Origin: Agarophyton chilense
Taxonomy: Eukaryota; Rhodophyta; Florideophyceae; Gracilariales; Gracilariaceae
Direction of reading: 5' to 3'
NCBI GenBank assembly: GCA_030374765.1
Contig: JARGXX010000037.1
Coordinates: forward strand, 457,387 to 521,386
DNA: 64,000 nt
In this document: positions 7,264-57,693 of the stretch, piece by piece
Position numbering within the stretch: position 1 is the stretch's first letter
How the letters are laid out: every line of letters starts with the position of its first letter
Program-made: the position numbers and the translations under genes
The notes under the pieces: generated by a model
Seen by the model: the letters and a program-made list of their open reading frames with translations, nothing else
Told to the model about the DNA's origin: nothing
Databases searched by the model: none

Positions 7264-8138
7264 TGTAGGACAATGCCCCCAAGAAGGAAAACCTACGAAG
7301 ACGTCCGGATCTTCCTCTCACGAGGTAACCGGCGCGGTAGAGCCCTCCCAGGGATCGGCGCGCAATGCCGGGTGTAAGCCGGAGCCGAACCGTCGCGATG
7401 GGCGCAGGGAGGCTGAAAGAAGCCGAGAATATCCGCCGAAGCGGTGCTTGCGTATCTTCTGAGGAGGCAAAACCCACGAGAGTGGCAAGCACGACAGGTG
7501 TCAGTGCGAGCCGCAAGAGCGGGAATTGCCCAATGAAGGGGAGGAAAAGGGAAGTAAAAGGGAAGGAAAATGTGAACGGAGGCAAGAGGGCGAGGTTGAC
7601 CACGAGTCGCAAGAGAGGACTCGGGAATAGCCGGCACTGCCGGGTGTAGCAAACCGTATACACTGGCGGAACCACGAAAGTGGTAATAGATACCCAACAC
7701 ACGAAGGCTGCTTGAACGTCAAAGGGGGTTGGGAAGCCGTGCACCACGGGAAATCCCTCCGTAAGGAGTTGTAAATCCGCGCAGGCGGTTCGACCCAGAG
7801 CCAAGATCTGGAAGACCAAGATCACCCTTGTTGGGGAGACTTTACTGGACCGGCAGCCGCGAGGCCGGCGGCCTAAGTACTGTAGTCACCGTAGAATAGA
7901 ATAAATAAAGTCTATCCTAAATAGCTAAATGTCCGTCTAACAAAGCGGCCAATCTGGCGGCCACGTGTCGCGCGGGCGCTTCGGCCACTTGTATGGCACC
8001 CGATCCCGCCGGTGCATCACCGGCGTTCCGGCCATTGCCGTGAAAACGGATTACTCCTACTCATAACGAGGTTGCACGCCAAAGGCTCCGGAAAAAACTT
8101 AAGTCCCCAAAAACCTCCCTGGAGGACGTTGCTCTTCA
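7264..8138 (+). mobile_element. Solo-LTR-like element A
   Basis: This 875-bp unit starts TGTAGGAC and ends GCTCTTCA, a TG...CA structure with partly inverted ends. It is flanked by CTTTT (7259-7263) and CTGTT (8139-8143), a 4/5-matching and presumably aged 5-bp target duplication. It aligns by eye with the element at 19725-20654: the start, a GTGTAAG block, a GTTGGGGAG-TTTACTG block, and overlapping AATAAA signals (7900-7909) recur in the same order. It has no protein-coding capacity of its own. Short palindromes of the form CCRC-N4-GYGG recur at 7433, 7474, 7511, 7671 and 7777. I read it as a solo LTR of an element whose internal part is absent from this window; a non-autonomous structured element is the alternative. 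Confidence 0.65.
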
Positions 8139-21648: not shown

Positions 21649-22281
21649 TGTCGTACAATCACCTCTGGGGTATGCTATTGTCTTGTCTACGGAGCGTAGT
21701 GACGCTCAACCGTAGGGAGCCTGGTGACGCTCAACCTTAGAAGGTAGACGTAATAAACCTCGATTGTAACAGGGCACCGTGAAAACCTGCAGGTGCAAAC
21801 GGTGGGGCAACTAGTCTATACCGAGTAGGTGAAAGATGGTAGGCGTCGACGAGCGGGAAAGCCTTTGTGGTAGTTGAGAAACGATGAACCAAAAGGTATA
21901 GTCGTGACCCAAGTGGTGCCTGTCTTTATCAGATTAGGATGTGGGAGGTGCAGTTCCCTATATGCAGTGGACTGCACTCTCCAGATCACCCGGGAGGTGC
22001 CAGCAAGGCACGGTCCCTGACCTAGTGTCAGAGACCTGGCTGCACTGGCTACAGTGCCAGGTGGCCACTCCACTACTGTACTAAAATGAATATAATTACA
22101 ATTACAATTACTAACAATTACTCAACCAGAAGGTACATGTCAACACTACACGTGGTTGACAACACCTAGATGGTAGCTCGCCCGGAGCTGCCTGGCCGAT
22201 GATCCCTCGCACCCATCACCTACAAGGTCAGTGTAGTATATTGACAACCTCAAAGGTCAGACCTTCTGCCAATATACGACA
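21649..22281 (-). repeat. G1 3' LTR (left), 633 bp
   Basis: It begins TGTCGTA and ends TACGACA, a perfect 7-bp terminal inversion, and matches 32207-32840 at about 93.5 percent by hand alignment. It contains eleven ACC-N4-6-GGT sites (21661, 21734, 21785, 21820, 21888, 21907, 21988, 22125, 22164, 22218, 22247) where about 0.5 would be expected. Confidence 0.92.
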
Positions 22282-22283
22282 GA

Positions 22284-22293
22284 CCCCCTTCCT
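22284..22293 (-). other. G1 polypurine tract
   Basis: On the minus strand AGGAAGGGGG lies two bases from the 3' LTR start, the expected place of the plus-strand primer. Confidence 0.7.
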
Positions 22294-22815
22294 ACCCGTG
22301 AGGCACGCTCCGTGTGTCCTTCCATCGACCCATAGAGGTGTAGCGGGCGACAGCGGCGCGGGCATCGGAGTGGTGTCTGCACACGGCACGCGATCCCTTG
22401 AGGTGCAGAACTCGGCGCCAGTATCGCTTTGGGGGGGGGCGCGCGGCGATGTCGGCGCACGAATTGAGCGACAACCATTCGGGTAGGGACTGTTATGAGG
22501 ACGATGCAGTGGAACTAGCGCACTCGCGGACACCGTTTCGGTAGTGGCCCTGCTTGCTTGCGATTCTGCTTCCGCATAGCCCCCCTGTCTAACCAAGTTG
22601 GTGTCAGACCTTTTCCCCATTACTCAAACTTCAGTTCCCTCCTAGGTCCCTGCGCAGCGACGACCCGCCTGGTCGTTCCCACGGCTCGACAACCCTTCAG
22701 GTAGTGCTGCCCTTAATTGGCGGCGTCGCGACTGTAACCGTTTGTCCGGCTTTTCCCTGAAGGTTTCCGGGCTTCTCAACCTTTCAGGTTTCGTCTACCT
22801 TGTAAGGATTGACAC

Positions 22816-23124
22816 GTGGCGCCGGTGGGGCCTGAGCCTGCGTCGATACAACCATTGAGGTGTTGGCCTGGGTCCGTGGTGGAAGCTTCCGGGTGTGAGA
22901 CCTTATTCGTGTTGAGCGGCCCCGTCAGTAATTACTCGACCTTTTTCCGGTTTTGCATTCCGGTTTACCCTCAATGCAATGACAGGATCGCGCCGCCTCT
23001 GCGCACGCGTTCGAACCCATTCGGTACCACGTCGGTGCCCCTCGCGCCGCATCGTGGATTCGTCACCGATACCATGAAGGGGTGGGTCGTCCCCACAAGC
23101 AGCACCAGCGCTCGGGAGACGTGA
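22816..23124 (+). CDS. G1 antisense ORF 1 (hypothetical)
   Basis: A 102-residue plus-strand frame lying between the LTR and the next antisense ORF; its TGA (23122-23124) is one base before the ATG at 23126. No domain is recognised. It contains two ACC-N5-GGT sites within 11 bases (23015, 23026). It may be the start of a longer antisense transcript unit or simply chance. Confidence 0.25.
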   Translation: MAPVGPEPASIQPLRCWPGSVVEASGCETLFVLSGPVSNYSTFFRFCIPVYPQCNDRIAPPLRTRSNPFGTTSVPLAPHRGFVTDTMKGWVVPTSSTSARET

Positions 23125-23125
23125 G

Positions 23126-24211
23126 ATGCCGGTTACCATTGAGGTTGAAGAAGTTGGAGATTCGGAGGGGATTGATACCCCTGCAGTTATGTCTTTCAGG
23201 TCGGATTGGTCCCGTTCCACAATACCTCAAAGGTCTGGACCCGCTCGCGACCGCACGCCGGCCACTGTTGTACCCGGAAGGTCAGTGTCGGTACTACCGG
23301 AAAGGTTGGATCCGTTGGCCATCTGCTCAGAACGGACCGAGGAGGCTCTACTTCAGAAGGATGAATACCCGCTGGTGTTCACCGCGGCGGTGGGGGTCCA
23401 GTCATCACCTCGTTCGTCGGGTCGAGCTACGGCCTTCCCAACCATTTCAGGTAGCGGCCCATCTCGTGGCCGTGGACGCGGTGGTATTACCAAGAGGGTG
23501 ACTTGCTCGACTTCGCGAACGCCTACCAACATTGGGTTTCGCAGGGTGCCTGTCCTTGCGACTCAGTTCTCCCCTGGGACTCCGGCTGACCCGTACCAAC
23601 GCAGCGGTGGACTTCCTTCGACGATTCAAACCAATTGGGCTCACAATCTCGCGTTTGTTGCGGCGAATCGGAAGACGAGTCAGTATGGACTTTTTGCTAT
23701 TACCTTCGACCAGGTGACGAACAATGACCTGTTGAAGCATGATTGGCCTGTGGCGGTGGGGAATTCGTCACTGCGTTGGGACTGCGAGCGCCTTCGCTCC
23801 GTTCCATTGCTTTTGAAGAAACGGGACCAAGAGTCTCAACCTTGTCAGGGTCGACTGGCATGTTACCAGAGTCCGCAGCGACATATACCTTTGAGGTATT
23901 TCATCCCGCCGACATACCCGAGCGACTTGCCGTATGTGCGCATCGAACCGGAGCTGGATTATTACCGTCGATTGGTGGTGCAAGTGTGCCAGTACCCGTC
24001 TATTCCGGAGACTTACCTTCCGGTTTCACCTCACTTGGTTTCCCTGAATCGGCCTTTCACCACTATCAACTGGGCTGAGCGTAGTAGGTGGGGCGAGGAT
24101 GCAGCGACGGAGAGTCGCGTTCGCACTCGCAACTCGTACACTCGCGTTATGCATATGTTTCAAAACGTCGAGTACTTCTCACAACCTACGAAGGATAGAG
24201 GCGATTGGTAA
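23126..24211 (+). CDS. G1 antisense ORF 2 (361 residues, unrecognised)
   Basis: An uninterrupted frame with ATG on the strand opposite gag-pol, in the 3-kb gap between the chromodomain and the 3' LTR. The protein is Pro/Arg-rich in its first half; its second half has more globular composition (TNWAHNLAFVAANRK; FIPPTYPSDLPYVRIEPELD). I do not recognise it. The sense strand has no comparable frame here, so the ORF is not a shadow of pol. Some plant gypsy elements (Grande, RIRE2-like) carry an antisense ORF in the same position, which is the precedent. After TAA 24209 the same frame resumes with a second long ORF. Eleven ACC-N4-6-GGT sites of the element fall in it in mixed codon phases. Confidence 0.5.
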   Translation: MPVTIEVEEVGDSEGIDTPAVMSFRSDWSRSTIPQRSGPARDRTPATVVPGRSVSVLPERLDPLAICSERTEEALLQKDEYPLVFTAAVGVQSSPRSSGRATAFPTISGSGPSRGRGRGGITKRVTCSTSRTPTNIGFRRVPVLATQFSPGTPADPYQRSGGLPSTIQTNWAHNLAFVAANRKTSQYGLFAITFDQVTNNDLLKHDWPVAVGNSSLRWDCERLRSVPLLLKKRDQESQPCQGRLACYQSPQRHIPLRYFIPPTYPSDLPYVRIEPELDYYRRLVVQVCQYPSIPETYLPVSPHLVSLNRPFTTINWAERSRWGEDAATESRVRTRNSYTRVMHMFQNVEYFSQPTKDRGDW

Positions 24212-24250
24212 GTGCTTCTACCAGAGTGATGGCAGTCCTATGAGGTTCCG

Positions 24251-25012
24251 TTGTCACTGAGCGTGCCCACTCCGCCGGTCTTCGCGTACTTCGGGAGTCA
24301 TATTTCCCGCAACCTAGAGAGGTATTACCTCATTTGGTCGATTGCCCTCACGGAATGGACCTTATTGGTTGCCATCCTGGCTCTAGAGGCCGCTCGTTAC
24401 GGTATCGATTGGGATTGTCGCAATCCCGACTCTGACCCATACCGAGATGGTGTTCAACCTGTAGGTCGCATCTTCTTCATACCTCCGAGGGTTGCCCAGG
24501 ATATTTCCCGATTTGGTTACGAGAACATCGTGGAGGGGAGCGATTATACCGTGAAGGATTTGGACTCGTATCTCGAGCAGAGCAAGAATTACCATTGGGA
24601 TTCCCATCAAGGTTGGGAGCCTTTCGATCCCGCTGCTTGGGAGATAGTGCCTCGCCACGCAAAATACTATCCCGGGGAGCTTCCTGTTTATGGAGCTCCC
24701 GCGAGCCCCGAACCTTATCATGGTACTCTGGAGACACCAGTTGGTCGTTATGCTGGTCCCTTCCCGTCGGAGCCGTTACCTCAAGGTCGTAAGTCGCCTA
24801 TCCTTACGGGTGTGACTCCTACTCAACCGAGCTCCTTGCGGGGTTGCTGGTCCGTTTCGACCTCTGTTGGCGAGTATTGCTCGTCGTTCACCTCAACCTA
24901 TGATGGATTTTCCGGCCGTGGTCGGTTTGCTGGCTCAACTTCGCCAGTCTTGCGTCACCAACTTTCAGAGGGCTGGTCCTACCTCCGTGGTTGCTGTATT
25001 AACGCTCCTTGA
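24251..25012 (+). CDS. G1 antisense ORF 3 (253 residues, unrecognised)
   Basis: Same reading frame as antisense ORF 2, separated by two stops (24209, 24227) in 40 bases, so the two may once have been one protein of over 600 residues. It is rich in Tyr, Trp and acidic residues (SKNYHWDSHQGWEPFDPAAW), with a hydrophobic stretch ERYYLIWSIALTEWTLLVAI at about residues 23-42 that could be a membrane segment or a buried helix. The first codon is TTG, so no independent start is claimed. No family is recognised. Confidence 0.42.
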   Translation: MSLSVPTPPVFAYFGSHISRNLERYYLIWSIALTEWTLLVAILALEAARYGIDWDCRNPDSDPYRDGVQPVGRIFFIPPRVAQDISRFGYENIVEGSDYTVKDLDSYLEQSKNYHWDSHQGWEPFDPAAWEIVPRHAKYYPGELPVYGAPASPEPYHGTLETPVGRYAGPFPSEPLPQGRKSPILTGVTPTQPSSLRGCWSVSTSVGEYCSSFTSTYDGFSGRGRFAGSTSPVLRHQLSEGWSYLRGCCINAP

Positions 25013-25040
25013 AGGTTTGCTGCCGCGCCATGCGCAATAA

Positions 25041-25397
25041 ATGAAGGCGCTGAACCATCTTGGTGAGTTACGGAATCAGTTCCAGTTGGACATGTACCAA
25101 CTGGCCACCCGTCAGGTTGCCAATCTGGCAAGCGTCTCTGCTGCTGCGCCATCTGATCCTTTGTTGGATCCCGTTCTACGTTCAAACTTGAACCCTGCGG
25201 TTTTGCAATCTCCTCCGGCGGTTCCTTTCGTTCATCCTCTCTTGGTTTCGACTCCTCTCTCCAGTGGCTGGGCTACCGTTCCTTCGCTACCTCTTAGGTC
25301 GATGGCTACTAGCATTTCCGCAGGTTTTCCTCCGCGGGTAGTCAATAACACGGGTCCTCCTGTTTCCATTGCTCCTAAACCGACAGGTCCTTCTTAA
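25041..25397 (+). CDS. G1 antisense ORF 4 (118 residues, unrecognised)
   Basis: Starts with ATG and reads an amphipathic helix (LGELRNQFQLDMYQLATRQV) followed by a Pro/Ser/Val-rich tail. It is in a different frame from ORFs 2-3, 28 bases downstream. It may be the C-terminal part of the same antisense protein after a frameshift. No family is recognised. It ends 202 bases from the chromodomain segment on the other strand. Confidence 0.35.
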   Translation: MKALNHLGELRNQFQLDMYQLATRQVANLASVSAAAPSDPLLDPVLRSNLNPAVLQSPPAVPFVHPLLVSTPLSSGWATVPSLPLRSMATSISAGFPPRVVNNTGPPVSIAPKPTGPS

Positions 25398-25599
25398 TGT
25401 AAAATGTTGTCTCTTCTTGTCTCCTCTACTGTTACATTTGGTTGTTCTTTCGTATCCTCCCTTGTAGGTAATCTGACACGCATACGCGTCCACCTTCTGC
25501 GGAAAATGACATCTTTTCTCCCCCTTCCTTAGGCCTGAGTACCACGAAGGTCTAAGGTTAGCTTTCTGCAGCCATCAGCTCCTTGCGACGGCGCCAATA

Positions 25600-25741
25600 C
25601 CTGATACGAAAGTTTGGGGGTACTGCGGCTGGGGGGTTGGAGGGTGTCCCCTTCTGGGCCCCAGCCGTACCACCTGACGGTGTACTTCAGACCAATGTAG
25701 GTTCGCGTGTGGCTTACCAGACGGTCAACGGGAAATTCTTC
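25600..25741 (-). other. G1 chromodomain segment of pol
   Basis: Read in the pol frame after the TGA at 25778, the minus strand gives EEFPVDRLVSH, then KYTVRWYGWGPEGDTLQPP, the order and spacing of a chromodomain (the VRW-x-G and D-T-x-x-P-P blocks). The usual Trp-Glu of the DTWEP block is Leu-Gln here, and the first aromatic of the cage is Phe. Chromodomains target integration to marked chromatin in chromoviruses; whether this altered cage still bound methyl-lysine is unknown. Confidence 0.7.
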
Positions 25742-25777
25742 TGAGGTTTGGTTCTGATCTTTCGAGTGAACGCTACC

Positions 25778-28700
25778 TCAAGGGTTCATATGTTCCGAGT
25801 TGGGAGCTTCGTGTGTGAGAGCCGGGTCAGGAGCTCCCGCTGTTACCGTTTGGGGTTCCATTTCCGTCCCTGTTAGAGGGTTGTAATCCGGATCATCACG
25901 TTGACGGTCATCGTTCACCTCAATTGGGGTGGGGTCCTCCGAGGGTCGAGTGCGCAGAGCTACCGCTCTGGGCTCTCGGGCTGTGGTGTCCGCCTCCATG
26001 CCGTGTTGAACCGTTTCAGGTGCTACCGTAATACGGTCAATTGATATCGTATTCGGTATTCCGTCCTGTTCAACCGTAACGGTGTGGTTGGATGCGTTCA
26101 GTACCTTATAGGGTCCCACTGATCTGGGTAGAAGCTTCGAATTCATATTTCTGTCAATAGCTTCGTCGTCTGCTTCATCACCCGGTCGTGGTCTTTTACC
26201 TGAAGGTGGGTTATCTATGTAGACATATTGTCCCGAGGATACAGACACCACTTTGGTTATCCTACGGTCGTAGTCGGCCTTGTACCGCTTCTGGGCTGCA
26301 GTGAGGCGGCTCTCTGCATGTTTGAGAGCCCTCCTCAACCTCACAAGGGTATTCCGCTTGACCTGGGCAGGGGTCAGTGCGCCAGCTGCAGTGCTCGTGG
26401 TATGATCTCCCTGCACTACAATACCTAGGGGGTGTCGCGACAGATCCAAATCAAAGGGAGTGGTCTGCGTTGAACGGTGTACCTGCAGGTTATAGGAGTA
26501 GGTGAGCGGTTGCACCAGCTCATCCTACCCAGTTTGGTGCTCTTCCGTATAGTGCCGTATCCTTGATACCAAAGTGTAGTTAAAGCGCTCGACCTGTCCG
26601 TTCGTCTGCTGGTGGTAGGCAGTAGTGAAATAGTGCTTGATACCGAAGAGGTTACAGTCTGCTTCGAAGAACTTCAATGCCAAGTTTGAACCATTATCGG
26701 CAAAAAGGTACAGTGGTGCATCGTACAGGTATACCCAATTGTTGAGGAACGCGATCGCCAGCGTGGTTGACTTCGTCTCCTTTAAAGGTATCGCTCTTGT
26801 GAGCTTCGAGAACCTGTCGGTGATCACTAGAATGTGCTGATATCCATTCTTGGTTTTGGGAAGTGGTCCTAGAAGGTATATCGCAACAAACTCCAGTAGA
26901 CCCGCTGCTGGGAACAGCTTGAGGTATTTTCGATGCTTTCGAATACCACCGCGGTTACGAACACAAAACTCGCATTGACCTACAAAAGTATAGACATCAT
27001 GGGCCATATGAAGCCAATAGAACTGTTGCCTCAAGGTGTAATACATCCTGGTGGCACCGGGGTGTCCCGATAGTCGCGGGTAGTGCGCGAGATACAAGAC
27101 TCTCGGGCGCAGTGCCTTCGGAACCACATTTTGAAGGCTACCATCCAAGGTTGACCTTCTCACGATGTACCGATTGTGGTCCACATCGAACGGTGATACT
27201 TTGAAACCAATTTGGTCAGCCATGGTTCTGCAGTACGCATCCTGGGCCTGTTCACGTAGAAATTTCTCTCGGGTTACGGGCATGACGTTCGTTTCCTCGA
27301 GGGTCAGTATCTGAGTTGCCGTGTCGGTGTTCCGCAAAGCACGTTCTTCAGGTGAGTCCCAACATCCTCCTAGGTGGTCGCCGGTACCATTTTGGTTTGA
27401 TGACACCAAAAAGCAAGGGATATCATCGTCCACCGGTTCTGTCTCTAACATTGAGGTGTTTAAGCGTGACATAGCGTCAGGTATGTTGTGCTTGATACCT
27501 GGACGGTACTGTACGTCGTATTCAAACTCGGACAGTCTCAACCTCCAACGGGCAAGTCCACCAGACGCATCTGCGGGTCCGAGGATCCTCCTTAACGCGT
27601 CGTGGTCCGTGCGCAACGTAAAGCGCTCACCATACAGGTGTAGAAAAAGCATCAACATGCTCCAAACTACTGCTAGACATTCCTTCTCGGTTACCATGTA
27701 GTTTTGCTCCGCCTCATTCATAGCGCGGCTCCAGTATTTTATAGGTAATTTGTATGCGTTGTGCTGCTCCTGCATGAGACAACAACCAATTTGGGCATGG
27801 GATGCATCTGTATCCAGAGTGTATGGTAGACCTGTTTTCTGTATCGCTAGGATTGGCGGCGACAACAGCGCTCGTTTCAATGCCTCAAAGATGTCCATTT
27901 ATTCGTCCGATAGATTCTCAAACCGTTCAGGTTCACCTTTCTGGAGCTTCTTGTTGAGGGGAGCCGCCATTTTCGCGAATCCCTTCACGAAGCGACGATA
28001 GACGTTAGATAAACCTATAAAGGATCGTACGTCTGTCTGGGATCGTGGCAACTTGACCTTCTGTACGGCTCTAATGTTTCTTGGCGCAACCTCTAGGGTA
28101 CCAGGGCCTATGAAGGAGCCCAGGTACTCAACCGTTCTGGTAAAGAAGACGCATTTTCACAGCTTCAGCGTCACTTCCGCCTCAGTTTGGAGGGTTAGTA
28201 CGATGCGTATGTGTGCAAAGTGCTCTTGTACCGATCTGGAATAGATGATTACATCATCGATGTATACCAAGGCGGTTGTCCATTTAACCTTCGAAAGGAT
28301 GATGTCCAGCACCCTTTGAAAGGTGGCTGGAGCATTGCGTAACCCTAACTGCATCCGCATGAAGCGAAACAAACCTGCATGGCACATGAAGGTCGTTTTG
28401 TCTCGATCTTCCTCACCTACGGGTACCTGCCAATAACCACAATTGGCATCCAACGTGGAAAATATCTGCGTATCTCCCAAAGAGTCGATGCACTCATCCA
28501 TTCTAGGTATCTGGTACGAATCCCTGATGGACACGCTATTTAGTCTGCTGTAGTCCACACAAAACCTTATACGGTTATCCCCTTTCTTCTGAACCAGAAC
28601 CACGGGACCAGCCCAATCTGAGTTGGCTGGTTCAATTACCCCTTCTTGGAGCATTCGCTCCACTTCTTTGAGTTCTATCTCTCTCGCGTTCAGACCTGCT

Positions 28701-29296
28701 CGGTATGGTTGCTGATAAATCGGCTTCGAGTCAGGGAGGAGCTCGATGCGATGCTGTGTGGCCTTAATTTGGCCCAGATGGCCTGACCACATGGTTTCGA
28801 ACTCCTCCAGAAGGTCGATATTACGGCCCCGCTGTCGGCCGTTTTCTTTACCAATCTGGACTGTATCTTGCCATTGTCTCTCAAGGTCCGGTTTCTCTTC
28901 TTTGTCTACCGATGCCTTATCGGTTAGCTTCGCTTCCATGTTGGTATTTATCGATACCTTTGTGGTTGTGGACGCATTTGCACACCCCCCCTCCTTATCG
29001 AAGGCGACCTCGCCGAGATCAGTGTGAGCTACGGTGAAGACCCCTTGTGGTGCCGGTAGTGCGATGCCAACATTGGTATTTTCCGCCAACCTCACGTCAT
29101 GACTGCTGGAGTTGCTGAGACACACCTTAAAGGGTTGATTTGGGATGTTGTCGACAATCCCGTTGGCCATCAAGGTGAGGTGTCGATGTGCTAATCTCGG
29201 ATGGTTTTGTAGAATGACCAGCCCGGTGGTCGCACACGACACCGGTACCAATATTTGGTGCATTGGCGGGATAACAACCTGTTTGGTAATGTGCAC
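25778..29296 (-). pseudogene. G1 pol: reverse transcriptase, RNase H, integrase, C-terminal linker
   Basis: One reading frame with TGA at 28154, TAA at 27899 and TAG at 26522. RT: FCVDYSRLNSV, the LDANCGYWQV block, and intact YIDD near 28257. RNase H: TLDTDASHAQIGC near 27845 and TLRTDHDALRRI. Integrase: HYPRLSGHPG...CEFCVRN zinc-binding region (HHCC), then the core; the first catalytic Asp is Tyr (TAC near 26877), the second is present in FADNGSN, and Glu in QVERFN. A GPY-like linker (LLPRSVGPYKVL) precedes the chromodomain. The first residue loss alone should abolish integration. Several stops are single-base changes from common codons (for example TGG to TAG). Confidence 0.88.
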
Positions 29297-29383
29297 TTTG
29301 TTGGAGACCGTTTCGGTGGAGATCGTCTTCTTCGGTTTGACGAACCATCCCCGTTTGGTTTCCGTATTACCTGAAATGGCAAT

Positions 29384-29860
29384 TCATCCCCCCTGACGTA
29401 GGGCGACGGTATGGGAACCAGGAAGGATTGCTTTGACATGTCTGTCAATGAAGTTCGTACCAAGTAGGCAGTCTGTTGGCAAACGGTCGACAACAAAGAA
29501 TTGTGGTCTTAACTTGAGGTGTCCGAGCTGCCCCACAGTGGTGAGCATACCTCGAAGGTTTAATGGGCGCTCATTTGCATCCACCAGCGGGTTGTTGTCG
29601 GGAGGTCGGCTCAAGTTCCGAAGTACCGCCTCAGGTATGACGTGGGAGTTCAGGACCTTTGGGCCGGCCCCCGTATCCAACATGCAGGTGACCGGAACCG
29701 CAAGGCGATCGGAGAAACACATTGAAGCACGTACTTTATAGTTGTTGTACTTCATATGACAAACCGGAATTGGTTGTGACGTGTTCTCTTCCACTTTCAA
29801 GGTTCTGGGTATCGATTGGCCTTCCAATTGCTGGTTGGGTTCGGCCATTACGCCAACCAT
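29384..29860 (-). pseudogene. G1 retropepsin-like protease
   Basis: 158 residues in the gag-pol frame with the active-site motif MLDTGAGPKVLNS and a later DRLPTDCLLGTNFIDRH block typical of Ty3 retropepsins (the ILGxxFL position). It ends at TGA 29382-29384, after which the same frame continues into RT. The active-site Asp is intact. Confidence 0.82.
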
Positions 29861-30315
29861 TCGGTTTTTTCCTCCTGTACGGGAGGGGTTGAGTCCAAGT
29901 TTGGTGTTTCCTCGATGGTATTGACCTGTACCTGTGTACGGGGTTGGAACCTATTTGGTGCTTGCGTTGAATACCAATAGAGGCGTTGGTGATTCTGCCT
30001 GCGAGCCTGAATCAACTGGTCTCTCATCCCTGGAGGTAAGTTAGGGCAATTGTTTGCCAAATGGTCTGTCGCGAGACAAAACCAGCAAACGAGGCCTCCA
30101 GTTTGAGGGTCTCGCGTTACCATTGAGGGGGGTTTCGAAACCTGGTTGGTAGGAGCAGTGGCGTAGGATGTGGGTGGCGAGTTATGGAAGCTCGCTCCTG
30201 GCATCCTATGCGAGCTCACCGAACTTGGCGGCGATTGTACCGAGTTTGGTGTATGCGTTGACGACCAATTTCCTCCCGTCAACGGTTTCGGGAACCGCCC
30301 ATGGGTCACTACCAA
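29848..30315 (-). pseudogene. G1 gag C-terminus with CCHC zinc knuckle
   Basis: A 155-residue frame containing CWFCLATDHLANNC, which is C-x2-C-x4-H-x4-C, the nucleocapsid knuckle for RNA binding. This piece is in a different frame from the gag and protease pieces on either side, which share one frame, so two compensating indels flank it. The region before the knuckle is Ser/Pro/Thr-rich. Confidence 0.78.
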
Positions 30316-30451
30316 GTGGATAGCGGTTCCTCTAGGTACTATGATTTGCGAGCTACCCTCTGAGGTTGTTGTGTCTTCAATTTACAAGACTGGCCTTTTC
30401 GGTTTATCCTTCGAGGTTGGCGGCATGGCTGGTCTCTTTCCCAGCAGAAGG

Positions 30452-32059
30452 TTATCTCCAATGCCCTGGGAGTATCGATCCAGCCCATTGTAGTCTACCT
30501 TTTTGGTTAGTGGCTAGGTAATTGTGTACCAGATAATTGATCGCTTTGTCGACATTGTCGGCAAATAGCGACTTTAACCTCGAGGTAGTGAACACATTAT
30601 CACAACAGGTTTCCAGATTCCAAAGCGCGAGCGAAAACTCCGATTCGGTTTGCCCAGACCTTTGATGGTCAGCGAGGACTTCCGAGTAAGCCTCGTGGAT
30701 AACCTCATCTGTGGCGTATGTTTCCAAAAGAAAATTAACCACTTCTAGCTATGACTCCAACATCTCTGTGCCATCCTCATCCATCGCTAATGTGTTGCCG
30801 CGGAGCCTACCCTGCAGCAAGTAGTATGCTTGTCCTTTAAGGTAAAACTGAAATAGCCACATCGCAGCGACCTCGAAAAAACCATTTTGGTCACATGCAA
30901 GCTTGAACTTCTGTAAAAACTCAATTATCGCAATAAGATCCGTACCTGTGAAGGTTGTGTCACCCATTTGGAAGCTGAGCTTCTTGTGGTGCTTAATAAT
31001 CTTCTGAGCCACCCCTTGGGTGTATTCAGAAGACTTGTTGATCAACCGATAATTCCTGTAGTCAACCGCTTTGGTGAACAGATCTTTCAAGGGTTGGTGC
31101 ACCTCCAGGTCTATTTCGGTGTCCGACTCAGAGTCGGGCGACTCATTGTATCGCTTTTTACCCTTTCGGTTCTTTTTCGACGACTTCTTCGTCGACCTGT
31201 TCGTTTTCTTCTTCTTATTATCTTTACGGTCATCATCCGACGATGAACTCGTATCGGAACTGGAGTCTGACGAGTCGGGATCTGAATCATCCTCTCGATT
31301 CTTTCCCCTCTTCGTCCTCCGCTTCTTCCCTTTTCGGTTTCTTCGTCGCTCATCCAACGAGTCAGACGAATCGTCCGTGGGACCACCTCCATGGGTATCC
31401 TTTTGAACGAGACGTGTAATTGGTTGCAGGCAAATGTCTTGAGAATCTACCTTCCCCGGGACCTCTTGACTCTGCCTTGGACCTTGTAGGTACTCACTAT
31501 CAGTAGGTAAGTGTTTAGAATGAGTGGAATGACCCATTTGGAACCCTTGTGGTATGCGCTTTGCGATGTTCACCTGTGTAGGTCGGGATTTTGTGAATCC
31601 CTCGGAAACCCAAAGGTCCTGCACAGCGCTGTAAACATGCCCCCTAGCATCTGCAAAGAGATACTGTTTCACCATTTCAGTTAACCTTTCCGATAGCTCT
31701 TGAGCTGCTCGGTCAATCACAATACGGGTAAATGCATCGACGTCCATTGATGGCGGAACCATCCGGGTATCCGACTTCTCCTTTATGGTTAATGCATCCT
31801 CGACCGCGAGGGTGACGAGCGCTTTCGCTTGCTCTTCGACGTGAGGCCATAGCTCCTCCGCTGCAACCTCAATTGGTAATTCCCTTTGAGGTTCCGTTTC
31901 CATAGGCGGCGGACCATGTACCTTTACGGTTTTGTCCCGAGGGTACCGGAGCAGCTCCTCGGGGTTTTCCAGAATCGGTTGAGCCGATGGGGCTCCTTTA
32001 GAACCTTTATGGCTTGGCGGGGCGCTCGCACCACGCGTATTCCTTTTAGGTCGTTCCAT
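30452..32059 (-). pseudogene. G1 gag (matrix/capsid part)
   Basis: From ATG 32059 the frame has an acidic and mixed N-terminus, then a strongly basic/acidic Lys-Ser-Asp block near 31390-31110, then a capsid-like helical region (DYRNYRLINKSSEYTQG; FTGTDLIAIIEFLQKF). TAG at 30749 splits it, after which VNFLLETYATDEVI continues in frame to 30452. The same sub-blocks occur in the gag of the second chromovirus (LDYRYYRLKRGG; VEYLLRGYATTDAI), showing the two belong to one clade. The long Ser-Asp/Lys tract is unusual for gag and probably disordered. Confidence 0.8.
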
Positions 32060-32191
32060 TTGTGACCAATAGTGGTATCCTGTATTGCTTTGCTGGATTT
32101 CCTGAAACCAAATAGGTCTACGAGCGTCCAATCCTTCTCGGAATCTCGTGTGAACCGTTAAGGTACGACGAAACCTAAAAATACTTTCTAA

Positions 32192-32203
32192 GTCGGGAGA
32201 CCA
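32192..32203 (-). other. G1 candidate primer-binding site
   Basis: Read on the minus strand just inside the 5' LTR: TGGTCTCCCGAC, three bases from the LTR edge. TGG is the complement of the tRNA CCA end, so the primer would end GTCGGGAGACCA. I cannot match this to a named tRNA by eye. Confidence 0.5.
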
Positions 32204-32206
32204 AAA

Positions 32207-32840
32207 TGTCGTACAATCACCTCTGGGGTATGCTACTGTCTTGTCTCGGGAGCGTGGTGACGCTCAACCGTAGGGAGAGAGGTGACGCTAAACCTTAGAA
32301 GGTAGACGTAGTAAACCTCGATGGTAACAGGGCACTGTGAAAACCCGCAGGGGAAAACGGCGGGGCAACTAGCCTATACCGTGTAGGTGAACGATGGTAG
32401 GCGTTGACGCGCGGGAAAGCCTGTGTGGTAGTTGAGAAACGATGAACCAAAAGATAAATTGGTGACCCAAGTGGTGTCTGTCTTTATCAGATTAGGATGG
32501 GGGAGGTGCAGTTCCCTATATGCAGTGGACTGCACTCTCCAGATCACCCGGGAGGTGCCAGCAATGCACGGTCTCTGACCTAGTGTCAGAGACCTGGCCA
32601 GCACTGGCTACAGTGCCAGGTGGCCACTCCACTACTGTACTAAAATGAATATAATTACAATTACAAGTACTAATAATTACTCAACCAGAAGGTACATTTC
32701 AACACTACACGTGGCTGACAACACCTAGATGGTAGCCCGCCCGGAGCTGCCTGGCCGATGATCCCTCGCACCCATCACCTACGGTGTCAGTGCAGTATAT
32801 TGACAACCTCAAAGGTCAGACCTTCTGCCACTATACGACA
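32207..32840 (-). repeat. G1 5' LTR (right), 634 bp
   Basis: TGTCGTA...TACGACA ends and near-identity to 21649-22281. Transcription of gag would start in this copy and run leftward. Most ACC-N4-6-GGT sites are shared with the other LTR, though some are lost by point changes (for example the site at 21785 corresponds to a mutated one here). Confidence 0.92.
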
Positions 32841-32845
32841 GCTGC
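32841..32845. repeat. Target-site duplication GCTGC, right copy
   Basis: Exact copy of 21644-21648, directly abutting the LTR end. Confidence 0.9.
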
Positions 32846-38787: not shown

Positions 38788-40101
38788 ATGTGTAGTGCTG
38801 ACGAGTATGACTCGTCGGATACGTCCACTGACGACGCCAGTGATGATGATCATCGCAGTTCTCGTTCTAGGAAGAGAAACAATTCTCCTTGGCTATTGAG
38901 AAAGAAAGGTCCTAAGTACAAGCGTCTCAGGCCACTTCCTTGTACGAATCCGTTGTATCGGAAAGTCCTGGACTACCGGTATTATCGCCTGAAGAGAGGA
39001 GGAAAGAATCGATCGGGTCGCGAAACCGCAAAGGTTAAAGACCACATTAGGCGGTTGAAGATTGGACTGAATGATTTAGTCTTTGATGGCAAAACGCCCA
39101 TTATCGTTATCGAGTACCTTACTCGTTTCGCTGCCGAAGCGGACACCTTAGAAATAATTGAACCTCAAGCTTGGGTTTCATTACCACATTTCTTGACGGG
39201 CGTTACGTCCGAGCAATAACGTTCCGTTTGCCGATCCCTGACCGCTGACGAAAGAGGTGTGACATCCTGGCCGGAAGCAGTAGAGTACTTACTGCGCGGC
39301 TATGCGACAACGGACGCAATCCGACAGGCTATCCAGGATCTTCGTGATGTGACCCAGACACCTGGTGAGGGAGAAGCAGAGTACAGATCGAGACTTAACA
39401 GAATGGCCACGGGCTGTGGAAACGTTTACTCAATGGAGGACAAGATTACGTTGTTCATGGATGGACTCGATCCCAACATCAATTCTCTAGTGGCTTGATT
39501 TCGAGAAAAGCATGAAAGAACCCCATTTCTCGAGTTGGTTCAGTTAGCGCAAGCTGAAGGTGACGCGGTAAGAGCTCGCGGAGTTACGCGGAACACCATA
39601 ACGCTTGGTGCATTCAAAGCAGAGGAAAGACGCAAACAATCCGCGAAAACCACTCGAAAGGTTTTCTACCTGGAATCTCCAATGGACTCTCGAGAGTTGT
39701 CGTTCGCTAGACACGATAACCAATCGCAACACGATGCTATTCACCTTATGGATCATCGGCACTCATCAGTGCCCACAGATGATCTACCTAACTCAGAATC
39801 TCAAGAGGAAGAAGCTCTAATGGCTATGGAATAGAGCCGCCCAGAATCCCGTGCATACATGAAACCCCCGAAAGGAGGATTGAAGAATGGAAAAGCTGGA
39901 TGGGTGGACACGCAATTAGCGTCTCGATCACAACCGAGGTCGGCAGCCCGCCGTGAAGCGTCAATTTTCTATCTGTGCTATGGCTTTCATCATCTGTCTT
40001 CAGAATGTACCCTTCCTGCAAAGGATTTAGTTCGCGTCCTCACGAATTACGAGACTCTCTCAGAAGAGGAAAGAATCCGAGTGCTGGCTGGTACCTACTG
40101 A
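38788..40101 (+). pseudogene. G2 gag remnant
   Basis: Pieces at 38788-39219, 39259-39498, 39535-39834 and 39859-40101. The first has an acidic Asp-Ser N-terminus and the LDYRYYRLKRGG block; the second VEYLLRGYATTDAI. The last contains LCYGFHHLSSEC, a zinc knuckle in which the first Cys of C-x2-C-x4-H-x4-C is Phe, so the finger is broken. Stops lie between the pieces (for example TAA at 39217 and TGA at 39496). Confidence 0.7.
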
Positions 40102-40262
40102 AAGTTCAAAGCATGGCTTAGCTACCATCCTGGACGTCAATCTGGAGCTCCAGTAATAGAGAACACTGAAGCACCACAGGCTACTCTGCAAGTTGGAAAC
40201 AACGCCCCAAGGGCGAACGACACGCCTCAGTCGGGAAACTAAGTAAGGGAACCACTAGGGAG

Positions 40263-41189
40263 TTGGCCCTATTCCATCGCGTAGAGACGACCAGGGAGTA
40301 CTCGCCTTCCTGTTCCTGCGCTTGGAGACCCAAGGTCCTGATGAGGACTCATCATACTTTGTCGTGCGGATTAAATCCGTCCGTTGGAAAGCGAGTACAG
40401 TTTGACTGTGAACTCAAATGTCCTTGGAGACATTATAGTTGTCCGTTGAAACGGGAAAACTTTATTATGACAATGCAGAAGAGAAACAATAAAGCTTATG
40501 CCGTCATCGGCTGGAACAAGGATTTATTGACCCGCCGCCTGACAGTTCTTGACACAAGCGCCGGACCGAACTTTATTCGAATATCCAAACTAGGACCCAC
40601 CGATCAGGAACAAATTCGTAACAATCCATTGATTTATATCCGAGATGCTAATAGGAATGCAGTGAGAATACTTGGAACAGTGAAGTTGCTCGTTCGACTC
40701 GGACACTTTTTATTGAAGGTGACGTTTATTGTCTGCGAGTCACTGGCCGCACCAGTTGTTCTGGGGTGCGATTATTGTGACAGATTTGTCGAAGCAATCC
40801 GCCTTCGGAGTCGACTAATTACGTTGGACGATGGCCCGACAGTGCCAATACTGAGAAGACCACTACGAAGAGTCCCTATAGCTGCTCCACTTCCACCCTC
40901 AATGGAATACGAGTTGGCTCGTGGTCGTGCATCACCAAAGATTCGTATGTCGAAACCTACAGTGTTAAAGGCTCAATCCCGAACCTGGGTACAAGTGATA
41001 ACACAACGACACGGTCTCGTGTTAATCCAGCCTAATGCTGCGATTTACGAACATCGAGGACTTCTCGCAGCGAATGGAATTGCCCAAGTTGAACCGGACA
41101 ACCCCCTCCGAATACTCATTAGTAACTTTACCGATAATGATTATCATTTACCGAAGAATCTCTACCGCAAAAGTGCTGGGGTTTTCTGA
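40263..41189 (+). pseudogene. G2 protease region
   Basis: A 308-residue frame with LTVLDTSAGPNFIR, the retropepsin active site (D-T-S/G), followed by a LGCDYCDRFVEAIRL block typical of Ty3 proteases. The C-terminal half is the spacer before RT and overlaps the next piece in another frame. Confidence 0.72.
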
Positions 41190-42422
41190 TGTGTCAGAAG
41201 AATCAACTGGCGCATATGAAGGTCCCAGAGAGCAGTCGCAACCGACAGAAGAACGGAAGGACCCAGACAAGCTGGTAGAAGAACAAGCTCTCGAGAATGT
41301 TCCCAAAGGATATAAGGAAAGAATCAAACAAATGTTGAAAAAGTATGCCTCTCTGTGGACTGGAAACTTAGGAGAGATCTCCGCTACAGAACATCATATT
41401 GATGTTATTTCGGGATCTCACCCCATTTCTCAGCCACGTTACAGAGCACGACCGCAAACTCCTCAGATCGAGGAGGACAATATTGCCAAGATGCTCGAAG
41501 CAGGAGAAATAGAAGCAGCACAATCTGCTTGGGCTTCACCTGTGGTGTAAGTACCAAAACCTGATGGTTCTCTTCTTTACGATTCTGTGTCGACTACCGG
41601 AAACTCAACGCAGTTACGATACGGGATACCTATGCAATGCCTCGCATGGACGAGTGTATAGACAGCTTAGCACGTACGAACGTGTTCACCACGCTTGACC
41701 CAAACACCGGCTATTGGCAGGTTCTTGTAGCCGAAAAAGATCAGGATAAGACTGCATTTGTGCCACATGCTCGACTATACCGTTTCAAGCGGATTCTCTT
41801 TGGACTTACCAACGCTCCGGTAACTTTCCAGCACGACCTGGACATATTACTCTCGAATTATAAATGGAAAACATGTTTAGTCTATTTGGACAATGTCATT
41901 ATCTTCTCCCAAGATATGGAAAGTCATATGCGACATGTAGAAGACATCGTCAAAGCGTTGCAGACAGCAGTTATAACTTTGAAATTCAAGAAATGCGAAT
42001 GGTTTGCGAATAATGTGAAGTATTTGGGCCAAATAATTGGGACTGGTCAGCTTGCAATTCATGAAGCTCAGACAGCGGCAGTCCGCGAATCGCAACCACC
42101 GTCCACACAGACTCAATTGAGATCCTTCCTTGTATTATTTAACGTCTACAGACGATTCATACCGCGCTACTCGCACATTGCAGCTCCGTTGAACGCAATA
42201 TTGCGTAAAGGACAGCCTGTTAAGCTCGACGAATTCGGACCCGCCGAACACGAAGCCTTCAACACTTTGAAGACAAAACTCGTCACAGCACCAATCTTTG
42301 CCTTGCCCGAACCTAACCTAATCTATTCTTTGGATACCTACTCAAGTGAGTATCAGGTAGGGTGTGCCCTTTTTCAGACCCATCCGGACGGTCAGAGGAA
42401 ACCAATCGGTTTCTGGTCATGA
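41190..42422 (+). pseudogene. G2 reverse transcriptase and start of RNase H
   Basis: Pieces up to 41550 carry the RT N-terminus (ATEHHIDVISGSHPISQ; SAWASPVV) and those from 41637 the palm (MPRMDECIDSLARTNVFTTL; LDPNTGYWQV). The catalytic YxDD box is YLDN (GAC AAT near 41890), so the second metal-binding Asp is lost. RNase H begins near 42325 (LDTYSSEYQVGCALF), where the usual D-A-S is altered to Y-S-S. A stop at 41548 and a frameshift between 41550 and 41637 interrupt it. Confidence 0.8.
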
Positions 42423-42479
42423 ACGCTAAACGCTGCAGAGAAGAATTAATCCGTACCAGAAAAGGAATGCCTTGCAGTA

Positions 42480-43964
42480 GTGTCGACGCTTACTACTTTA
42501 CGACCCAATCTCCAGGGGGAAACGTTTACCATCCATACGGATCATTCGTCCCTACGATGGTTTTTATCAATAACAGACCCCTCCGGGAGATTAACACGCT
42601 GGCGCTTACGACTATCTGAATTCGATTTCGAAGTTAAATATAAGAAGGGACTGGTTAACATAGAGGCCGACGCTTTATCGCGATTCGAAACTTTAGGGGA
42701 AACCCAAGGAGAAATCGATGACGATTTATCATGTTTCTCAGTGGAGATGGACAACGATGAAACGAAACTTGAAGATCAAGAAGATGAAGGGGATTACTCC
42801 CAATTGGGCCCTCTAATGGCAACCCATGGAACTGAATCTCCTGTTCAACTCGAGCGTATCTCGATCACTGAGCTCCTCAATGAGCAACTCACAGATAACT
42901 TCTGTACAGCAATACGCTCTTGTCTTACTGGGGAGGAGGAGTTGCCGTTTTCGCTCGATTCACGAGGTATATTGCTCAGACATGTCGAGAAGCATGATCA
43001 GATAGTGGTTCGGCACGCTTTGAAGAGTCGTGTAATCTACTTGGCCCATTAGGCCAAGCTATCTGGACACTCAGGAGGAAAAAAGTTGTTTATGACCCTA
43101 AGAAGGGACTTCTATCGGCCAACGTTGGAAATGGACTGCCATGCTACGGTAAAGCTATGCCGAAAGTCTGCGATGAATCGCGTGAAACTATATAAGAAGT
43201 GGAAAACAAATACTCTACTCCCGGCGAAGCCGCCTCTACAATTCGTCAGCATCGACATACTTGGAGAGCTAATTCGTTCTAACCGAGTATATCGCTACCT
43301 ACTGGTAATTATGGATCGATTCTCGAAGCTTGTACGGACTGTACAGTTGAAGAAGATAATCGCCTTGGTAATGGCCCAGGCTGTCATCAAACAATGGGTG
43401 TACGTGTACGGACAGCCGTATGTGCTGCTATGAGATAATGGAAAACAGTTTGTCGCTAAGTTCTTTCAGAACGTATGCCGAATATTAGGCATCAGGAACG
43501 TGTTTACCACGACCTACCATCCACAGTGTAATGGTCAGGTGGAACGCTACAACCGTAAGTTATTAGCCGCTCTTCGGCATTACATCGCGGATAATCCTAT
43601 GGAGTGGGACATGTACACAGACACACTCTGTTATGCGTACAACACGCAAGTGCATACGTCTACCAAGGCGGCTCCTTTTGATCTCGTGATATCACGTAGC
43701 CCACCGTCACTGCCTATGAGGTTGGATGAAGTCGAGGAAGACAAACCGACACCGGCGAAGAACCATCTAAGATGGAGAAACGACCTGATGTTAAGGACAG
43801 AGCAGGCGGCTCGAGAATTTTCAAAAACGCAAGCGAGTTACAAACGTAATTCGGACGCCCGACGTCGAAGATATTTGTCAGATCTCAGAGGAGAAGGATA
43901 CGCGTTTGTCCGCGTGGAACTACTGAGAAGCAGGATCGACCACGTCACAAATTGCTACCGTTAG
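42480..43964 (+). pseudogene. G2 RNase H end and integrase
   Basis: 42480-43052 reads FTIHTDHSSLRWFL (RNase H) through the connection to the integrase zinc region near 43030-43180, where a stop (TAG 43051) and altered Cys/His residues are seen. The core has the first Asp (FVSIDILGE), a TGA at 43431-43433 directly before the second (DNGKQF), and Glu in GQVERYN. The region past 43560 is the integrase C-terminal domain with STKAAPFDLVIS. Confidence 0.78.
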
Positions 43965-45040
43965 CATCCGGACCTTTAAAGGTATTGGAGCTCACTGATG
44001 ACACGGTCGTCCTGAAAACAGGAGAGGACGTTGAACAATTTTCGCGCGATCGTGTTGAAACCGCACCAGACAACCCTGAAACCCAGGAAACTGAGAAAGA
44101 AAGCACTGTCTATCCGCAGGAAGAGGAACTACCCGTCGAATCAGACGATCCGCCTCCCGTGGCACACGGCGTTGACGCGGCTCGCGATCTCCCGCTGTGC
44201 GGCAGTACAGTGGCATTTCACGACAAATCTCGGCCGTAGAAAGAGCCAGCACTCTGGTACGACCACAGTACCTGAAGGCAGAAAAGATATTTTCAAATTT
44301 GGTCCAATTAGATCCGGTCCTAAAGCGGCTGCACAGACATCATCACCCGTTCAAGTTAAACCGTCAAATGAAACGCCACTCGCTGAGCGATTGCGCTTGG
44401 CAGCCGACCGAAGTGAAGAAGGCGAATATGAAGCTAAAACTCCATTGGTGATGGATGAAACCGCGGCCGAACCCTCGGTGAAGAAGCCCAGTTTGGCTCA
44501 GAACCCTCAGAAGGACAGACAGAACAAGAAACTTGAAGAAAAACGGATAACCGTAGACCCAACGACTGTGCAGTCAGAAGCTGAGAATGACGCTACGGTG
44601 GCACAAGAAGGCTCTCAGCTGTCCGAACAGCCTACGCAGGTTCAATCTGAAGATAAAGGGAGTTCCCAAGCGCCCTCTTGAAAGGTTCAAGGAAATGACA
44701 ACGTTGTCATATCCCGTCAGGATTGAAAGCGTTCGTTTGTCAGACGGTATAAGCTGGAGAACCGAAACCTCGCGCCATGCGCCGAAACGTTGGGAAATGC
44801 CCAGGAATACGTCATGGATCGCATCATCGATAACGGCGAATACAAAGACACCCACAGACTGCTGTATTGTATCCGTTGGAACGGTATTTCTCTGAAAGCG
44901 TATACGTGGAAGCCTATAACTCATATCCCGCGCTCAAAGATTGTGCGTCATCATCTTGGCATTCGACTACCCCTCCCTGCGGAGATCGACGCTGCGATGA
45001 TGGGATTTATAGAAGCGATTCCGCAGAACGACTATTAATT
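43965..45040 (+). pseudogene. G2 pol C-terminus with chromodomain
   Basis: After charged linker sequence in mixed frames, 44803-44960 reads EYVMDRIIDNGEYKDTHRLL then IRWNGISLKAYTWKP, a chromodomain (E-Y-V start, VKW-x-G and TWEP-like blocks with Trp kept). It ends at TAA about 45036. A Glu/Lys-rich linker of this length is unusual but may be frameshifted. Confidence 0.68.
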
Positions 45041-52387: not shown

Positions 52388-52475
52388 GATGTACCACCTT
52401 AAGCTACCTTACGCTGATATTTAAACATTCTTCACTTCCCCCGGACACCCCTCGCTAATGAAACCAGACTTTCCA

Positions 52476-56775: not shown

Positions 56776-57688
56776 TGTGGAGCAAAACCCGGCGACGGAA
56801 AGCGCTCTCAAGGTGTTCGAAGCCTTGCTCCCTGGGGGAGGCAGACTCAGAGACAGAGCCCTCCGTTCCACCCGTAGTGTGGGGTGTCTCTCCCACGGGG
56901 GATTCTAGCAGTACCGACGGAGGTGAGGGGTAGAAACCGTTGGGTCGGGAATGGGTATGGGTATCCCAAAGAATGGGGGAAAATCCGGCGAAGAGGAAAA
57001 ACGGGGCGAGGGTCGGGCACTAACAGGCACCGGACCCGAGAACCAGAAAATGGGCAAAACAACAAAAGAAACCCAATACAGGGGCGAAAACCTGTCCTCG
57101 AAAGGAAACACAAAAAGCACGCAACAAGTAAGCAGAACCCCCACGGGGTATCGTGCACGCAGGTCGTCTGAGCGGTCCCAAGGGGGTGGTTGCACGGAAC
57201 CCAAACGTGGGCACTCTCCAAGTGGAGTCGTGTCCCTACGCAGGCGTTGCTAACCAGAGCCCGTTCCGGGTTGTAAGGCCGAAACGATGGCGACGAAGAA
57301 CCTCTAAAGGTATCGAAGACCAACCTTGGTTCCCCTTTAGTTTGAGCTCGGAATGTCAGATCTCGCCTCCCTAAGTAGGGCCCACAAACTAAACTCTACA
57401 GTAGTGCACACCTGCTCAGCGCCATACACGTGGAGATCCCACTGCCAGGGCCCAAAAGTCCAACGTTCTACAAATATCCGAAAATCGGTGCCAAAACTAA
57501 GCCACGTGTGTCACGAGGCCAATCCAACCTTGGGCCATCCGAATTTTCCCTTATAGGCAAAATATAACCAGAAAACAGTGCCACCTCAGCACACCTTAGA
57601 GGGGATCATAACCATAACCCTCGGAGGGTTCAATCCTCATTCTATGAGTTGCATCTTCAAGTATCCCCTGACTGGGCGTTGCTCTACA
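56776..57688. mobile_element. Solo-LTR-like element C
   Basis: 913 bp with TGTGGAGC...GCTCTACA ends (7 of 8 inverted) and a perfect 5-bp duplication CCTTA. The empty site is visible in the undisrupted proximal duplicate near 36361-36372, which proves insertion after duplication. Terminal words resemble elements A and B (TGTAG-GC / GCTCT-CA), so it is probably the same superfamily, but internal similarity is weak and orientation unclear. It is rich in small palindromes (for example CTCC-AAGT-GGAG near 57216 and ACCT-CTAA-AGGT near 57300). Long frames on both strands here are GC-rich shadows without motifs. Confidence 0.8.
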
Positions 57689-57693
57689 CCTTA
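57689..57693. repeat. Target-site duplication CCTTA, right copy
   Basis: Exact copy of 56771-56775. Confidence 0.85.

Follow-up and report, generated by a model that had tools for sequence, protein, structure and literature searches.

Structure and copies of the G1 element

The window analyzed here comprises 64,000 nucleotides of the red alga Agarophyton chilense (GenBank assembly GCA_030374765.1, contig JARGXX010000037.1, positions 457,387 to 521,386). It contains a Ty3-type long terminal repeat (LTR) retrotransposon, designated G1, at 21649..32840 (minus strand, both LTRs and body), throughout which the interrupted palindrome ACC-Nk-GGT recurs with 23 sites at N4, 71 at N5 and 28 at N6. The element is flanked by a 5-bp target-site duplication (GCTGC at 21644-21648 and 32841-32845). 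Both LTRs have TGTCG...CGACA ends, the 3' LTR lying at the left in the window (21649..22281, minus) and the 5' LTR at the right (32207..32840, minus). The gag-like open reading frame (ORF) at 30749..32263 encodes 504 residues from stop to stop with a long Arg/Lys-rich stretch followed by a Ser/Asp-rich stretch and a match to PF10500 below the cut-off, while the C-terminal part of gag (29848..30381) shows a weak CCHC zinc-knuckle match (PF00098, E 0.22, below the cut-off). The aspartic protease ORF (29384..29950; PF13975, E 1e-5, just below the curated cut-off), the reverse transcriptase ORF (28157..29383), the RNase H/integrase ORF (26525..27898; PF17917 and PF17921 above the cut-off, PF00665 just below) and the integrase C-terminal ORF (25778..26524) are, like gag, on the minus strand, which is therefore the sense strand of G1. 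In another copy (L071) the integrase C-terminal region continues into a weak chromodomain-like end, for which PF00385 scored a sub-threshold 16 bits against a cut-off of 25.1. The pol order protease-reverse transcriptase-RNase H-integrase, together with the TG..CA LTR ends and the target-site duplication, is that of a Ty3/Gypsy element.

Between integrase and the 3' LTR lies an antisense ORF on the plus strand, present in the window as two parts of 377 residues (23078..24211) and 260 residues (24230..25012) and unbroken in copy L063, where it extends over 876 residues from stop to stop. It gave no Pfam match up to E 1. Its sole database relative is P0001, an unnamed A. chilense protein of 612 residues that from about residue 90 on matches the G1 copy at C128:930039-931958 at 97-99%; an antisense ORF of a retroelement (23078-25012) is present in public databases as P0001, and the host is accordingly A. 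chilense or a very near species.

All comparisons concern one genome and draw on 298 kb of fetched loci, a total in which overlapping stretches and 16 kb from the copy in the window are counted. The copy number of G1 is of the order of a hundred or more in 79.8 Mb (135 contigs), with at least 93 scored genomic places for RNase H/integrase, at least 109-110 for the antisense ORF (best of 404 candidates) and 905 candidate places for the LTR, of which the best 40 were scored. Fetched copies are mostly about 89-95% identical to that in the window, and the pol regions of 27 copies compared have a median identity of 92.3% to each other. For comparison, the published description of the G. chilensis genome gives 76.07 Mb, 138 contigs and 66.2% repeats (PMC10388701). 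At one locus (L014/L018, G000:C68:4809619-4810995) a G1 LTR fragment is followed immediately by a G1 LTR of opposite orientation, which looks like a nested insertion of the element into itself.

Excess of ACC-Nk-GGT in G1

The earlier note on this DNA had reported 95 hand-counted ACC-N4-6-GGT sites in 21649-32206. An exact count gave 113 (22 at N4, 64 at N5 and 27 at N6) with a further 12 at N7, confirming that the excess is real and stronger than first counted. The 11 sites given for the left LTR were reproduced exactly, whereas 22282-25777 holds 39 rather than 35 and 25778-32206 holds 62 rather than 49, one additional site spanning the border at 25777. The earlier note had counted the three spacings together; each is in excess, with N5 dominant. 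Dinucleotide-preserving shuffles of the same stretch (n = 200) did not reproduce the counts, yielding on average 3.5-3.6 sites at each spacing and at most 9 (N4), 9 (N5) and 11 (N6). The everted arrangement GGT-Nk-ACC occurred 4-10 times in 21649-32840 for k = 0-11 and 0-12 times for k = 12-20. An unbiased scan of every 3+3 gapped word in 21649-32841 ranked ACC-5-GGT first (71 versus 7.8, z 22.7), and the next-ranked words were mostly frame-shifts of it.

The sites are found in the LTRs, gag, pol and antisense ORFs and in all three codon phases, as the earlier note had described, with the N5 sites distributed unevenly among the phases of the sense ORFs (15, 13 and 3). Flanks and spacers of the sites contain little information and the only tandem repeat in G1 is a 25-bp duplication in each LTR; therefore, the sites look to have been made by point changes and not by duplication. 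The enrichment is retained in other copies: among 28 aligned G1 copies, the 23 that lack no bases across 26000-29300 contain 24-33 ACC-N4-6-GGT sites, the window copy having 30. Neither of the two outcomes that the earlier note named as refuting was thus obtained. A genome-wide search for two exactly spaced sites returned 0 matches, and 4 + 4 in the control, the pattern being over-strict.

Motif forms in other repeat families

The earlier note had placed the motif in one retrotransposon, which proved too narrow. Four other repeat families were found to have a variant of their own, giving at least five family-typical motifs. The first, G3, is a related Ty3 family reached by a search with the related protein P0003 and represented by two copies (L072 and L073); pieces of its pol are 36-55% identical to those of G1 in protein and the DNA is 53.5% identical. 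L072 contains 59 CCG-N2-CGG sites versus about 5.2-5.4 in shuffled sequence, 20 at N3, and 5 ACC-N5-GGT. The CCG-N2-CGG sites are spread across positions 1-6907 and occupy every codon phase of the pol frame; the following 2 kb contain none. The second copy contains 18 in 2 kb versus 1.3 shuffled, while G1 contains 0. In G4, a Ty3 family represented by 2 kb of one copy (L074, found via P0027), CC-N4-GG occurs 35 times and CC-N3-GG 28 times, each versus 11 in dinucleotide-shuffled sequence.

Of the 47 flank pieces outside G1 that are 600 bases or longer, 7 showed a CC-Nk-GG peak above 4.5 standard deviations (SD) and 1 an everted peak. All 7 fall in two repeat families, G5 and G6, and copies within one family are not independent evidence. 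CC-N8-GG is typical of G5, in which CCG-N6-CGG occurs 12 times versus about 1.2-1.3 shuffled and which gave 42 genomic matches within the best 40 of 491 candidate places. G6 contains CC-N6/7/8-GG 25, 29 and 27 times versus about 9.5 shuffled. Among the database pol proteins compared, G5 had no match and G6 a 16-residue match; the two are classed as repeats and not as established retrotransposons. Both are present in the window as fragments, given without strand. That of G5 (7264..8138) contains 19 CC-N8-GG versus 6.7 and 6 CCG-N6-CGG versus 0.6, and that of G6 (56776..57691) contains 22, 21 and 18 CC-N6/7/8-GG versus about 8. Outside G1, 1 of 34 window blocks exceeded 4.5 SD, and this block is G6. 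The host-gene stretches at 12361-18112 and 47137-54248 showed no CC/GG motif excess.

The window also contains a chromovirus region, G2 (40000..44700, plus strand; pol homology at 41571-43949), to which the earlier note had ascribed about two sites. The count of ACC-N5-GGT there is 0, with weak CC-N6-GG (23 versus 12.6) and CCT-N4-AGG (6 versus 1.0). The CCT-N4-AGG/CC-N6-GG signature is common to G6 and, weakly, G2, and at a guess G6 could represent an end or a non-coding portion of some family resembling G2.

In a comparison of families, ACC-5-GGT occurred 57 times versus 3.2 in G1, and 5, 2, 2, 0, 0, 1, 1 and 0 times in the eight further repeat stretches; of these counts, the leading 5, 2 and 2 slightly exceed the shuffle means and are reached by 10-24 of 200 shuffles. 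Everted controls reached at most +2.6 SD in nine stretches, and GG-k-CC at most +1.9 SD in seven. The CC/GG gap is 3-4 in G4, 4-5 in G3, 4-6 (mode 5) in G1, 6-8 in G6 and 8 in G5, neighbours overlapping. The families are told apart by their main three-letter forms and profile peak, and the two-letter gaps overlap. Two scans for relatives in viral contigs found none. The window closes with a tandem array of 8-9 bp telomere-like units (62393-64000), dominated by TTAGGG-containing words, that runs to the contig end at C37:521386.

Selection at the level of DNA

Synonymous-codon shuffles, in which protein and codon usage are kept, were applied to the three Ty3 families (500 shuffles per frame; 300 for G4). 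The gag ORF contains 19 sites versus 5.6 in shuffled sequence, the reverse transcriptase ORF 11 versus 3.0, the RNase H/integrase ORF 9 versus 4.3, the integrase C-terminal ORF 8 versus 2.0, the two antisense pieces 11 versus 1.7 and 9 versus 2.4, and the 876-residue antisense copy 31 versus 6.1. The protease ORF is a weak case, 16 of 500 shuffles reaching the observed 5 sites (2.3 shuffled). In eight of nine frames, three of which belong to the antisense gene, only 0-3 of 500 shuffles reach the observed count. G3 has 48 sites at N2 and N3 versus 10, and G4 has 62 at N3 and N4 versus 29.7, a number reached by 0 of 300 shuffles. Since synonymous shuffling loses half or more of the sites in most frames, the results indicate that DNA and not protein is selected, in agreement with the earlier argument that protein repeats are not the cause.

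The tolerance of mismatches in G1 was evaluated from variant counts pooled over N4-6 and compared with shuffles. Mirror-image variants are enriched on both sides for AAC-GGT and ACC-GTT (31 versus 11 and 38 versus 8.7), CCC-GGT and ACC-GGG (31 versus 9.8 and 30 versus 13), and TCC-GGT and ACC-GGA (16 versus 7.8 and 40 versus 14), whereas 0 of 6 variants of the innermost C or G are enriched. Substitution rates among G1 copies are about 1.5% for C to A and G to T and about 2.8% for G to A. The AAC and GTT excess (20 and 29) is not explained by decay, which at these rates would yield about two of each variant from the 113 sites; a small excess of ACC-GAT may reflect it, given the G to A rate. The mostly mirror-image tolerance, together with the lack of enrichment of inner-pair G-U arms (ATC-GGT 6 versus 7.0, ACT-GGT 4 versus 7.4), is in keeping with double-stranded DNA and speaks against a hairpin in RNA.

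Spacing, age and turnover of the sites

The mean distance between core sites is 84 bp in G1 and 88 bp in G3, the two families measured, and spacing is more even than random in both (coefficient of variation 0.72 versus 0.90, P 0.005, for G1; 0.63, matched by 0 of 2000 random arrangements, for G3). A raw comparison between G1 copies gave a mismatch of 5.0% at the motif versus 8.1-8.5% at other positions. This signal vanished when the bias of picking sites present in the window was corrected (4.2% versus 3.8-4.0%; 579 mismatches observed versus 598 expected of 13767), and conservation between copies, proposed earlier as a check, was therefore rejected as a sign of selection and is uninformative. 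Shared polymorphism (20%) is slightly lower at the motif (18/723 versus 293/9159), the sites again being window-chosen. At 115 of the 134 N4-7 sites of the window, the window copy has the common allele at all six positions. Since motif and other positions decay alike among copies, most of the sites are older than the dispersal of the copies and would have built up in the active lineage.

In homologous pol of G1 and G3, 32 of 39 G1 sites are not within 2 bp of a G3 site, at similar density. Most site positions have thus turned over, and a few may be either ancestral or tied to conserved residues.

Interpretation: proposed arrays for family-matched dimeric proteins

The explanation that best accounts for the results as a whole, to which we assign a rough probability of one in two, is that each family has its typical array for a matched dimeric DNA-binding protein. 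In each array a protein with two-fold symmetry would bind double-stranded DNA at inverted half-sites of the form (...CC)-Nk-(GG...). The half-site core would be CC/GG, and specificity would be set by the gap and one adjoining base, the outer A in G1 and the inner G in G3 and G5. That the sites serve a dimeric binder of double-stranded DNA is probable from the sequence, and the corresponding proposal of the earlier note is partly supported, in that the sites are non-chance, two-fold symmetric including most of the mismatch tolerance, and present in other copies, the symmetry however being imperfect. Since related families in one nucleus differ in form, co-evolution with a family-specific, probably self-encoded protein is suggested, and on these grounds we consider the odds evenly balanced that the element family encodes its binder. 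The position of the antisense ORF makes it a candidate, given the predicted DNA binding of its positional counterparts in plant Retand elements (PMC11963269); integrase or gag, common to Ty3 families, is as good. The even coverage suggests that the protein would cover the element and not the promoter alone. By covering the transcription unit from end to end it would most likely keep its own copies transcribable, in the manner of the VANC proteins of Arabidopsis VANDAL elements, or else mark or coat its own DNA; anti-silencing as the specific purpose is doubtful. Somewhat short of even is the possibility that a spacing code extends over entire elements, including their coding sequence, and is read by co-evolving family-specific dimers, such that each family recognizes, covers and keeps active only its own copies.

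Several observations weigh against this interpretation. Family boundaries are blurred in places: the 2 kb beside G3 has a broad CC-Nk-GG excess (+3.6 to +3.8 SD at k = 5, 8 and 10) with no clear single gap, CC-4-GG is raised in G1 (74 versus 52), G3 and G4, CC-5-GG in G1 and G3, and CCT-4-AGG in G1 (11 versus 2.6), G6 and G2. Mirror symmetry in G1 is imperfect, GCC-GGT occurring 17 times versus 7.2 but ACC-GGC 13 versus 10.4, and ACC-GAT 17 versus 9.9 yet its mirror ATC-GGT at the unenriched level given above. A rigid dimer would not usually accept gaps that vary, as they do here within single families, by 1-3 bp. No post-insertion selection is visible at the sites in the copies compared, and 7 of 39 G1 sites have a G3 site no more than 2 bp away, versus 1.65 expected (P 0.001), the coincidence being 9 versus 4.8 at 6 bp and 14 versus 9.5 at 12 bp. 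Regarding the binder, no homologue of the antisense ORF was found in the available G3 stretch, which does not include the gag start and 5' part; the element proteins scanned contain no DNA-binding domain beyond integrase and the weak zinc knuckle; and structure predictions are of very low confidence, with a mean pLDDT (predicted local distance difference test) of 32.6 for the antisense piece and 38.3 for gag. The binder could instead be a host protein family.

Alternative explanations

In the last case the sites would be bound by paralogous dimeric host factors that have CC/GG half-sites and differ in spacing, each retroelement family recruiting one. Related dimeric factors would be expected to share a CC/GG core and to differ, with some overlap, in spacing; the pattern resembles that of the Gal4/Leu3-type zinc-cluster proteins, in which spacing sets specificity, and the elements are without a recognizable binder. 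However, about 100 sites over coding sequence would far exceed the needs of transcription-factor recruitment, the two host-gene stretches in the window are without excess, and a search of the genome with Pfam Zn_clus gave no match, control genomes giving none either. We consider binding by host factors unlikely, though a serious alternative.

Considerably less probable is that the sites function in RNA as many mini-hairpins with CC..GG stems, for instance as packaging signals that are scattered along the RNA and recognized by Gag. Every CC/GG gap found is at least 3 and compatible with a loop, the gap tolerance of 1-3 is like a tolerance of loop size, the sites extend along the whole examined stretch in G1 and G3, and the outer-base G-U variant GCC-GGT is enriched. 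The hairpin test, covering G1 and G3, nevertheless spoke against pairing: middle-pair A.G or C.U arms are enriched 3-4 fold in G1 and inner G-U arms are not, and the remaining 63 complementary arms at N5 total 180 versus 162 shuffled. An RNA hairpin in G1 is thus largely refuted by the pattern of mismatch tolerance, to which G3 adds that a third matched pair would enclose two bases and that pairing variants show no systematic enrichment.

It is still less probable that the palindrome is the preferred target of the integrase, making the element a safe landing place. The N5 mode equals the length of the 5-bp target-site duplication, and integrase target consensuses are palindromic. This explanation is unsupported by flanks and junctions: 63.9 kb of non-G1 sequence at G1 loci is flat (ACC-k-GGT 9, 14 and 16 for k = 4-6, and 7-16 for k = 0-9), and the junctions lack ACC/GGT where it would be expected. 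The junction set comprises 16 left and 19 right entries; 3 of the right entries are really internal, and L014/L018 duplicate each other. A G1 LTR beside another was found by BLAST only in L014/L018 and possibly L022. Finally, a compositional, mutational or protein-repeat artefact, which might be entertained given that several repeats, especially G3 and G5, are higher in C+G than the window overall, is contradicted by both kinds of shuffle (dinucleotide and synonymous-codon), by the everted controls and by the differing motifs of the families, and has a negligible chance of being correct.

Significance and comparison with known systems

If arrays for family-matched dimers are the correct explanation, sequence-specific self-recognition of transposons is not peculiar to Arabidopsis VANDALs and arose in red algal LTR retrotransposons in a different, palindromic and coding-compatible form. 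Related families with different gaps would then be a natural experiment in which a dimer and about a hundred sites change together. Fragments may also become easier to assign to a family by their spacing, as the two anonymous fragments in the window show the spacing of theirs.

Gal4/Leu3-type zinc-cluster dimers have constant CGG/CCG half-sites with specificity by spacing, Leu3 using CCG-N4-CGG. Unlike these, no zinc-cluster domain was found in the element proteins scanned, and the blank genome search was accompanied by blank controls. Among the matches listed in the open-access literature, none described arrays of this kind in retroelements of red algae. The palindromic Isw2 motifs near fungal retrotransposons (PMC11481914) are a different phenomenon. 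Retand TRP28, from a plant Ty3 element, is encoded by an antisense ORF between pol and the 3' LTR and is predicted to bind DNA (PMC11963269). The antisense ORF of G1 has the same position and orientation as that of TRP28; it lacks a Pfam match up to E 1, however, and its sole database relative comes from this alga or one very near it.

VANDALs are DNA transposons. PMC5735166 gives the motif YAGTATTAY for VANC21 and AGTTGTCC/AGTTGTAC for VANC6, related VANDAL families differing in motif, and describes the VANC21 sites as non-palindromic, mainly non-coding and arranged in single-orientation arrays that spread through tandem repeats. Motif density is proposed there to confer specificity on the self-encoded protein (PMC5735166). 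The VANC-like precedent cited in the earlier note is apt in that a short dense motif is specific to one transposable element family (ACC-N5-GGT, within the sequence examined) and that related families have different motifs, here with overlapping two-letter gaps. It does not extend to the form of the sites, which in contrast to the VANDAL motifs as described there are inverted repeats throughout coding sequence, are without tandem arrays beyond the 25-bp LTR duplication, and vary most in the spacer. The carrier also differs, VANDAL being a Mutator-like DNA transposon and G1 an LTR retrotransposon.

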